This document shows positions 28,229-53,107 of a stretch of 64,000 nt of DNA, piece after piece. The position numbers and the translations under genes are program-made. The DNA is from Chlorogloeopsis fritschii PCC 6912 (GTDB lineage: Bacteria > Cyanobacteriota > Cyanobacteriia > Cyanobacteriales > Nostocaceae), in assembly GCF_000317285.1 (NCBI RefSeq), contig NZ_AJLN01000123.1:1-64000 (forward strand), read 5' to 3'. The number at the start of each line of letters is the position of its first letter. Positions within the stretch are counted from its first letter, which is position 1. The notes beneath the pieces were generated by a model, which saw nothing but the letters and a program-made list of their open reading frames with translations, was not told the origin of the DNA and did no database searches.

Positions 28229-28263
28229 ATTGTTGACGGTTTTTAATAGCTGAGATGAATGAT

Positions 28264-28298
28264 GAGTGGTTAGTGGTTAGTGGTTAGTGGTTAGTGGT
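28264..28298. repeat. STRR heptamer GGTTAGT array
   Basis: About four consecutive (A)GTGGTT/TTAGTGG heptamers directly left of the inverted-core repeat copy at 28311. Confidence 0.75.
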
Positions 28299-28310
28299 AA
28301 ACAAACAACT

Positions 28311-28387
28311 ACTGTACGGGCGGGTTTAGAAGATAAGTTATCGGTTTAAACAGAAAGTTAATCAACAAAACCCGCCCCTACTAACTA
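28311..28387. repeat. Inverted-core repeat, copy A (core orientation 1)
   Basis: GGGCGGGTTT at 28318-28327 and AAACCCGCCC at 28368-28377 enclose a 40-base core starting AGAAGATAAG. The left flank is CAACTACTGTAC and the right flank is CTACTAAC. It lies in the psaJ-psaL gap. Confidence 0.85.
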
Positions 28388-28653
28388 CCAACTACTAACT
28401 ACTAACCATATGGTTATATAACAGTAATAGTTCAAGTTATTGAGTTAGTTTAGTATAGATTACTCCACTATAGGCAGTAAAAACATTTTTAGCTTTGTAA
28501 TGCTGGAAACAGCATAATCTTTTCACATCCTGAAAACTAACTATAAATAACTAAATTAATTTTTCTAAACTTAATGTTCAAATAACATCTCAAACTAAGA
28601 TGATTATTAATATAAAATATTGCCACCATATTATTTAGAGGCGAAAATCAAAT

Positions 28654-29172
28654 ATGGCGCAAGCAGTTGATGCATCAAAAAATTCTCCTAGCGATCCTAG
28701 AAACCGGGAAGTTGTTTTTCCTGCATACCGCGATCCACAAGTTGGCAACCTAGAAACACCAATTAACTCTTCTGCCTTGGTGAAGTGGTTTATTGGTAAC
28801 TTACCTGCCTATCGCCCTGGTATCACTACCTTTAGACGGGGTCTAGAAATAGGCATGGCTCATGGTTACTGGATTTTTGGGCCTTTTGCAAAATTAGGCC
28901 CCCTGCGGAACACAGTTAATGCTAACTTAGCTGGCTTACTTGCAACTTTGGGCTTAATTGTGATTTTGACTGGTGCATTATCTCTTTATGCTAATAGCAA
29001 TCCTCCCAAGCCAGTTAATAGTGTAACTATACCGAACCCTCCCGAAGCTTTCCAATCTAACGAAGGCTGGAATGGTTTTGCCAGTGCTTTCTTAATTGGT
29101 GGTATTGGTGGTGCTGTGACAGCCTACTTTTTAACTACCAATTTGGCACTTATTCAAGGTCTGTTTGGTTAA
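28654..29172 (+). CDS. psaL: Photosystem I subunit XI (PsaL)
   Basis: A 172-residue subunit that holds PSI monomers together. Seen: N-terminal VVFPAYRDPQVGNLETPIN, then FIGNLPAYRPGITTFRRGLEIGMAHGYW, and three membrane helices. Its placement after psaF-psaJ is the order reported for heterocystous cyanobacteria and linked there to tetrameric PSI. A 425-base gap with repeat copy A separates it from psaJ, so it probably has its own promoter. ATG 28654 follows GAGGCG. Confidence 0.97.
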   Translation: MAQAVDASKNSPSDPRNREVVFPAYRDPQVGNLETPINSSALVKWFIGNLPAYRPGITTFRRGLEIGMAHGYWIFGPFAKLGPLRNTVNANLAGLLATLGLIVILTGALSLYANSNPPKPVNSVTIPNPPEAFQSNEGWNGFASAFLIGGIGGAVTAYFLTTNLALIQGLFG

Positions 29173-29238
29173 TTTAATGATTTGTGATTTGTGATTTGTT
29201 AGTGGATAGTGGATAGTGGTTAGTGGTAAATAACCAAC

Positions 29239-29315
29239 TACTGTACGGGCGGGTTTTGTTGATTAACTTTCTGTTCAAACCGATAACTTATCTTCTAAAC
29301 CCACCTCTACTAACT
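29239..29315. repeat. Inverted-core repeat, copy B (core orientation 2)
   Basis: GGGCGGGTTT at 29247-29256 and AAACCCACCT at 29297-29306 enclose a 40-base core that is the reverse complement of copy A's core at 39 of 40 positions. The outer flanks (CAACTACTGTAC left, CTACTAAC right) are in the same orientation as in copy A. Copies A and B bracket psaL. Confidence 0.85.
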
Positions 29316-39800: not shown

Positions 39801-39876
39801 TACTGTACGGGCGGGTTTTGTTAATTAACTTTCGGTTCAAACCGATAAATTATCTTCTAAACCCGCCCCTACCAAC
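39801..39876. repeat. Inverted-core repeat, copy C (core orientation 2)
   Basis: GGGCGGGTTT at 39809-39818 and AAACCCGCCC at 39859-39868 enclose a 40-base core in the same orientation as copy B (3 differences). Left flank AACAACCAACTACTGTAC is the same as in A and B. It lies in the gap between amiC and murI. Confidence 0.85.
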
Positions 39877-52526: not shown

Positions 52527-52605
52527 CTGGAATTTTGGCAACCTTTGGCAAGATGGATTAAAGCTAGATTTAAAAGGCTGGGAGCTAAATGTTAATGGTT
52601 AGTGG

Positions 52606-52930
52606 TTAGTGGATAGTGGCTAGGAAAAGAAGCCAGCGCTCTTGGTAGGGGAGGCAGTCCGGTGGTGAGCCAGCACTGCGGGAGGGTTTCCCTCCGCAGG
52701 TGACTGGCGTAGACACGAAGTGGCTTCTGAAAGTAAGGGTTCCCCGGCATAAAGGAGCCAGCGCGTTGGGCGGCTTCCCCGCGTTGTAGCGACTGGCGTC
52801 AAGTGGCGTCAACTGGCGTCGGGTTAAGCGCGTTGTAGCGACTGGCGTCAACTGCCGTTTTCCCTCCGCTGTAGACGCAAAGCGGCTACCGCAGGTGCGA
52901 ACTGTCCGTCAACAAGGATTCTTCTTACAG
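52606..52930. repeat. GC-rich interspersed repeat cluster
   Basis: A dense composite: AGCCAGCGCTCTTGG, GAGCCAGCACTGCGGGAGG, AAGGAGCCAGCGCGTTGGGCGGC, then tandem GACTGGCGTCAA/GTGGCGTCAA units and GTAGCGACTGGCGTC repeated. It seems built by repeated nesting of one hairpin family. No gene. Confidence 0.75.
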
Positions 52931-52936
52931 TTCCCC

Positions 52937-53005
52937 TACTGTACGGGCGGGTTTAGAAGATAAATCATCGGTTTTAGCTGAAAGATAATCAACGAAACCC
53001 GCACG
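52937..53005. repeat. Inverted-core repeat, copy E (core orientation 1)
   Basis: GGGCGGGTTT at 52945-52954 and AAACCCGCAC at 52995-53004 enclose a 40-base core in the orientation of copy A. Left flank CTACTGTAC conserved; the right flank passes into the GC-rich family (CGCCAGGTGC). Confidence 0.8.
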
Positions 53006-53107
53006 CCAGGTGCTACAAGTCGGCGGAGCCGCCCATCGCACTGGCTCCCCTACTAACTACTAACTACCAACTATTCCCTAATCCTTAATCCTGTATCGCC
53101 AAAAATT

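Follow-up and report, generated by a model that had tools for sequence, protein, structure and literature searches.

Opposite core orientations between fixed feet in a family of hairpin repeats of Chlorogloeopsis fritschii and related cyanobacteria

Introduction

In Chlorogloeopsis fritschii PCC 6912 the photosystem gene psaL lies between two copies of a short repeat whose outer sequences point in the same direction while the central 40 bp of one copy are the reverse complement of those of the other. This arrangement raises the questions of what kind of element this is, how a core can be turned around without its ends, and whether psaL itself might be turned around with it. Very small mobile repeats have been met before in related cyanobacteria: the small dispersed repeats of Nostoc, described by Elhai in 2008, are reportedly of this kind. 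We analysed a stretch of 64,000 nucleotides (contig NZ_AJLN01000123.1, positions 1 to 64,000), called the window below, and followed the repeat through its source genome (G000; 7.75 Mb, a draft in 160 contigs), the sister genome G002, also a draft, the third genome of the genus, G001, and the wider family.

Results

Anatomy of the copies in the window

The preliminary description of this DNA placed four copies of the repeat in the window, each with a core of exactly 40 bp, and arms and cores were indeed found at those places, the arms starting at positions 28318, 29247, 39809 and 52945. Copy A (28314-28381, + strand) occupies the gap between psaJ and psaL and consists of a GTAC foot (28314-28317), an arm (28318-28327), the core (28328-28367), a second arm (28368-28377) and a CTAC foot (28378-28381). 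Its core has AGAAGAT on the side of GTAC, which is the majority orientation in the family as a whole. To its left, at 28256-28313 (+ strand), is a heptad-like (TTAGTGG)n array with a TAAACAAACAACTACT stretch, and similar heptad-like stretches are found to the left of copies B and C. Copy B (29243-29310, + strand) lies between psaL and a convergent gmk-like gene and has the foot polarity of copy A, with its core (29257-29296) in the minority orientation. The B core had been described as the A core reversed between flanks of the same direction, with agreement at 39 of 40 positions, and we likewise find a single mismatch in 40 to the reverse complement. Copy C (39805-39872, + strand) has the minority orientation and copy D (52941-53053, + strand; core 52955-52994) the majority one, so that A groups with D and B with C, bearing out the statement that the copies near 39801 and 52937 repeat both orientations. 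After orienting, the C core differs from that of A at 4 positions and the D core at 7. The copies had been described as sharing the same outer flanks. Two corrections apply: the right arm of copy B carries two mismatches (AAACCCACCT), and in copy D a second palindromic element (about 53003-53047) intervenes between the right arm and CTACTAAC.

A search for repeats within the window returned both relations at once for A and B, a 151-bp direct repeat (80%) and a 68-bp inverted repeat (93%). Allowing one mismatch or none, the arm is matched 10 times in the window; 100 shuffles gave 2.8 such matches on average and never as many as 10. As DNA, copy A folds at -12.9 kcal/mol (z -4.3) and copy C has a z of -4.6, while the hairpin of copy B is weak (-4.8 kcal/mol, z -1.0). 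A scan of the window against Rfam at the gathering threshold returned nothing except one tRNA. The 68 bp of copy C are present, identical, at the orthologous site of the sister genome. Just before copy D, at 52580-52940, there is a dense cluster of other short palindromic repeats, which the sister genome lacks at the orthologous position.

The order of genes around psaL

It had been proposed that copies A and B could drive inversion of psaL. The gene (28654-29172, + strand; 172 aa) stands in the same relation to psaF and psaJ, both in position and in strand, as in 82 related loci (80 of 102 confirmed, plus those of G002 and G001; G001 and PCC 7702 are apparently one genome, which leaves 81 distinct loci). 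At 82 of 82, psaF and psaJ lie upstream of psaL on the same strand. The gmk-like gene is convergent with psaL in 80 of them and was not found in the other 2. None of the 82 related loci scanned has the exact frame of the repeat, as defined below, within 1.5 kb of psaL, and the psaJ-psaL gap of the sister genome contains no copy of either core type distinguished in the next section. Inversion of psaL by the repeats is not supported by this conserved gene order.

The repeat family in the source and sister genomes

The copies in the window are members of a family of hairpin repeats 60-70 bp long, each built of a GTAC foot, the arm GGGCGGGTTT, a core of about 40 bp, the arm AAACCCGCCC and a CTAC foot, which reads GTAG on the other strand. 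Exact arms separated by 20 to 50 bp occur 66 times in G000, and the same pattern read backwards, which served as a control, not once. Our collected set holds at least 144 distinct copies, 85 from G000 and 59 from G002; it omits loci of G001, which has 0 matches to the exact frame, and five loci of unassigned genome (L054, L057, L060, L063 and L066). Two types of core were distinguished in this set. Type I cores (n=124) are 38-44 bp long, with 97 of exactly 40 bp, and type II cores (n=20) are 36-40 bp long; copies with unrelated cores, such as L082 and L078, were classed as neither.

By the rule of our script, 25 of the 144 copies carry a nested second repeat. Among the other 119, an exact GTAG is present at one side in 104 and an exact GTAC at the other side in 100, and no copy of the 144 has equal feet. 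Taken over 92 distinct 60-mers, the pairing sum of the stem is 20.1 when each column is set against its true counterpart; sliding the counterpart by 1 to 4 columns gives no more than 13.9. Double-sided changes occupy 21 cells, with a mean of 20.9 in column shuffles. The hairpin stem is real, with no sign of compensatory change. A second palindromic element (GGGAGGCAG...CTGCC or GGGAGCCAG...CTGGC) like that of copy D at 53003-53047 sits at the foot/arm junction in L023, L102, L252, L247 and L274 as well, and at L004/L252, L008/L247 and L001/L274 the element is uninterrupted by it in the other genome.

Core orientation relative to the feet

When core orientation is tabulated against the feet across the collected set, 93 type I cores have the majority orientation and 31 of the 124 are inverted (54:18 in G000 and 39:13 in G002). 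The outer context casts doubt on two of these 31, L133 and L257, which were relabelled for the stem test and omitted from the clustering and tree described below. Counts by exact patterns are 25:8 and 9:3. Type II cores are oriented 20:0 in the collected set, and one inverted type II copy (G002:C7:35487) is present in the sister genome outside these counts. The inversion of the core between fixed outer sequences, first noticed in the window, is therefore real and family-wide, and the finding that might have overturned it, a fixed relation of core to flank in the copies elsewhere, was not made.

These proportions bear on the possibility that orientation is set at insertion, with the hairpin being taken from either strand and the feet rebuilt at the target. 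The arms are alike on both strands, as such a process would require, but the two orientations would then be expected at about 1:1, which is far from 93:31 or 20:0.

Single linkage at one edit places both orientations inside four clusters of cores, and two sets of cores that are identical in 40 of 40 bases also hold both. If the clusters represent separate lineages, orientation has changed at least four times. A tree of 122 cores, built on about 40 columns and poorly resolved, needs a minimum of 22 orientation changes, compared with 25.9 (sd 1.6) when the labels are shuffled, and 4 of 200 shuffles gave a number as low. Orientation thus appears to keep a weak link with core ancestry.

Orthologous sites in the two genomes

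The flanks were used to compare 71 of the 85 G000 rows (one element, L091, was entered twice), the remainder being window rows or rows already paired. In all, 67 of the 85 were bridged to G002, corresponding to 66 sites by the key of our script. At 39 of these 66 the scan detected no element on the G002 side, although some have degenerate remnants (e.g. L018/L261 and L038/L259); there is one clean empty G002 site among the bridged rows. For type I pairs with cores within 3 edits of one another the orientation is the same in 8 of 8, two of them in the minority orientation (L053 and L056), so that in-place inversion of a conserved orthologous core was seen in 0 of 8 pairs. Orientation is also the same in L103/L140, where the cores are 9 edits apart, and in L045/L119. 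Because orthologous copies keep their state, inversion looks both rare and inherited.

Two explanations lose ground at this point. G000 and G002 are both drafts, and an artefact of assembly at hairpins might be imagined; however, at L053/L058, L056/L152 and L103/L140 two separate assemblies both show the minority orientation, and inverted forms exist in other genera too, so that this idea is scarcely credible. The other is a phase-variable switch in which a site-specific recombinase flips the core and might also invert psaL. A 40-bp core flanked by inverted arms, and the mutual inversion of A and B around psaL, are what such a switch might leave, yet none of the eight conserved orthologous type I copies differs in orientation and psaL holds its place and strand in every one of the related loci. 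We regard it as very improbable. The preliminary description had named a recombinase or replication template switching as the agent that flips the core; the first, as an active switch, is unsupported by these comparisons and the second is the better fit, as discussed below.

At other sites the core has changed. L096/L244 and L032/L127 share their foot polarity, and their cores are inverted as well as diverged (11 and 12 edits once flipped); L080/L289 is a possible third such site, in which the G002 core is degenerate. At three sites the foot polarity is the same and the core type differs: L031/L240, L003/L296 and the site of copy B between psaL and gmk, which holds a type II element in G002 and is empty in G001. 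L040/L260 is perhaps a fourth, the G002 copy lying within a 517-bp segment that may be another site. Opposite frames were found in two further pairs, L015/L069 and L107/L283. In the first of these the frame is inverted together with its TTGGTTTTTAACC stretch, and the cores, 15 edits apart, read the same way along the chromosome.

Cores might be swapped and inverted at their sites if copies that pair by way of their arms recombine or undergo gene conversion, and the three or four sites with a different core type, as well as the two with an inverted and diverged core, are what this process would produce. They can also be explained by repeated insertion into the same heptad arrays: matches to the heptad CTACTAACYACTAAC, some of them overlapping, number 150 in G000, 93 in G002 and 5 in G001. 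Moreover, at 10-14 bp the arms are short for homologous recombination. On balance the sites with changed cores can be put down to repeated insertion or to core exchange, and we judge conversion in place quite unlikely as a general explanation for inverted cores. The opposite cores at the same site in two species (L096/L244 and L032/L127) are also compatible with orientation being set at insertion, a reading to which the feet of elements in other genera are relevant.

The element in other genera

The exact frame, GTACGGGCGGGTTT-N(30-46)-AAACCCGCCCCTAC, was found in 23 of 192 genomes of the family and in 11 of 56 genera, the source genus included. Because the feet were preset in this pattern, their conservation in the survey is by construction. 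The cores look different from genus to genus. Among 91 distinct cores that were typed (a set that excludes the core of G153 and small variants of G056, and in which the source genus is represented by six G002 cores), 51 pairs among the matches listed are more alike after one member has been reverse complemented, with a score of at least 12 and more than 4 above the forward score taken as the criterion. The best such pair, G105:C164 and G119:C154, scores 33 compared with -5 forward, and 60 shuffled cores reach at most 8. Outside the source genus, inverted cores between the same feet occur in the genera g47 and g48, and perhaps in g30, which has one weaker inverted pair.

Genome G056 has 31 copies of the frame and G085 has 8. 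In the 11 G056 loci that were examined the element is embedded in a different tandem repeat (ACTCCTGA-like) and the feet are unchanged, so that the feet seem to travel with the element and, on this evidence, to belong to it rather than to the target. This is hard to reconcile with feet that are rebuilt at each target, and we consider it unlikely that orientation is set at insertion. Nearly identical cores are seen in 20 listed copies of the 31 in G056, a population that has perhaps been active recently. A 5-bp target duplication, CTACT, suggested by the G000 copies, was dropped as a candidate; G056 does not show it.

Elements in and beside RAYT-type genes

TnpA_REP (RAYT) proteins of subclass 2.4, as they are described in PMC6006769, have the motifs NH[IFV]H, WQ and YIxNNP, are associated with canonical long or double-foot REPs, some of which lie within the gene, as a rule between HuH and Y, and leave its frame intact, and are abundant in cyanobacteria. 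We examined 28 Y1 transposase loci, 9 in G000 and 19 in G002, G056, G105 and G119. At 26 of the 28, flanks of up to 1.5 kb (shorter near contig ends) contain nothing that matches the arm with one mismatch or fewer; all 9 PF01797 loci of G000 are among these. L313 has one lone arm and no foot. The exception is L327, a RAYT-type gene of G002 that contains an element of the family in frame. The core of this element is similar to type I cores, with a score of 19 where 300 shuffles gave 15 at best. The L327 protein matches REP_Tyr_transpos (NF047646) with an E of 8e-10 and 38.8 bits, under the 80-bit cutoff, and Y1_Tnp with 24.2 bits (cutoff 23). It has the motifs NHLH, WQ and YIANNP, the first of which departs from the NH[IFV]H listed for subclass 2.4 in PMC6006769. 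Compared with the other Y1 loci, L327 shows no match as DNA and only weak matches as protein.

A protein search detected relatives of this gene in 7 of 9 genomes, with none detected in G056 and G085. In G048 an element with the arm GGGCAGGTTT is in frame inside a RAYT-type gene, and in G119 an element with the same arm lies inside the matched stretch, the frame of which has one stop; in G002 and G048 the frame stays open across the element. Both G048 and G119 also have elements with the arm GGGCGGGTTT and GTCG/GTAG feet just upstream of the gene. Paired arms are absent from the related genes of G000, G049, G078 and G105. The subclass-2.4-like gene of G000 (G000:C48:28883-29323, L353), which was absent from the PF01797 matches and was recovered by the protein search, instead carries in frame a different double-foot palindrome, GTAGAGACGCGAAATTTCGCGTCTCTAC (GTAGAGACGCG), another copy of which is located just before the likely start. 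Although a gene with elements of our family is present in G002, G048 and G119, a cognate RAYT gene was not found in the G000 draft of 160 contigs.

How well do the elements resemble REPs of subclass 2.4? The 5' GT[AG]G foot, adjoining a hairpin whose base is formed by G-C pairs, is present, as GTAG, in the 104 of 119 non-nested copies noted above, with an arm of GGGCGGG, and copies A and C fold, B poorly. A second foot of the form C[TC]AC, which makes a double-foot REP, is lacking in the dispersed copies, which have GTAC, and is present in the copies that lie within RAYT-type genes in G002, G048 and G119. In G002 and G048 the in-frame element lies between HuH and Y. The copies inside RAYT-type genes in three genomes, and those beside the gene in two, point to a family of REP-like elements of TnpA_REP subclass 2.4.

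A conventional MITE of a DDE-type insertion sequence, with no relation to RAYTs, might also have near-perfect 14-bp terminal inverted repeats and a length of 60-70 bp. However, the sites that were looked at have no consistent target duplication, and the location of such elements in and beside RAYT-type genes would be unexplained. We therefore hold this interpretation to be distinctly improbable.

Discussion

The family has characteristic feet, several lineages of cores and several genera show both orientations, and RAYT-type genes contain such elements. We infer that the elements are mobilised by a TnpA_REP enzyme. In the explanation that we favour, with a probability of roughly 0.55, the repeats are REP-like hairpins that would be moved as single strands by TnpA_REP of subclass 2.4, the core being inverted rarely by template switching in donor copies. 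The transposase would read the feet and arms and ignore the core, taking the polarity of the element from its unequal feet (GTAG at one end and GTAC at the other), with the core as a passive spacer. On rare occasions replication in a donor copy would switch template between the inverted arms, so that the core is copied backwards. Since the feet and arms would be unchanged by such a switch, the inverted copy would still be mobile and could found its own lineage, and as a result both orientations would coexist. We further infer that the likeliest cause of the inversion is a template switch between the arms. Spacer inversion by this route is reported, in the yeast work of PMC8604942, when arms exceed 9 bp. 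Template switching is the best fit to the data, although no event was caught in place in our comparisons.

Several observations count against this explanation. No cognate gene was found in G000, and G056 and G085 have copies without a detected relative of the gene. The second foot of the dispersed copies is GTAC, the L327 protein falls below the RAYT cutoff and double-sided changes in the stem do not exceed those in shuffles. The inverted spacers in the yeast cases of PMC8604942 are of a few bases, compared with about 40 here, in-place inversions number 0 of 8, and orientation retains some link with ancestry. The yeast cases, as described there, also differ in that they concern coding genes and not a mobile repeat. 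A tentative alternative, which we consider possible but rather unlikely, ties inversion to transposition itself. A hairpin intermediate would be closed and re-opened with foot polarity kept and the loop turned, the asymmetry of the feet would be the sole memory of the strand, and the arms would permit core exchange at one site.

If the explanation by TnpA_REP transposition and template switching is correct, it separates what the enzyme reads, the feet and arms that occur in exact form in 11 of the 56 genera sampled, from the core that it ignores. Core orientation would then be a countable trace of a rare process that inverts parts of bacterial hairpins in nature, genome comparison would make template switching in mobile hairpins measurable, and a possible explanation would be at hand for the unequal feet of such elements.

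The likeness to double-foot REPs of TnpA_REP subclass 2.4 (group 4), as presented in PMC6006769, extends to the GTAG foot, the hairpin with G-C base pairs at its base, the in-frame copies in a RAYT-type gene between HuH and Y and the copies beside the gene in g47. The dispersed copies differ from that description in ending in GTAC, rather than CTAC, on the GTAG strand, in their core of about 40 bp in both orientations and in that the cognate gene was not found in G000. By description they are also similar to REPINs (PMC3116915), which are dispersed hairpins with inverted conserved ends and a variable spacer and for which N. punctiforme was among the genomes studied; spacer inversion is not known to figure in the account of REPINs given there. 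The GTAG-tagged cyanobacterial REPs GTAG-12, -15 and -16 (PMC3733652) are alike, by their description, in the GTAG foot, in stems of 6-13 bp and in having filamentous cyanobacteria among their hosts, and unlike in their length of 20-40 bp and mostly short loops. The parts of the literature covered by our searches contained no report of inverted cores in REP-like elements.

Two minor observations concern individual copies. L257 of G002, one of the two copies with a doubtful outer context, has a hybrid core (at about 1667) in which both ends are alike (AGAAGATAA...TTATCTTCT), giving the impression that one arm was overwritten with a copy of the other. This single case looks like arm homogenisation, which is another mark of template switching. 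Finally, near-identical cores with the opposite relation to the feet lie only 0.9-2.2 kb apart in three pairs, G000:C107:39970/42166, C147:16935/18175 and, in the window, 28314/29243; close opposite pairs of this kind hint at local hopping.
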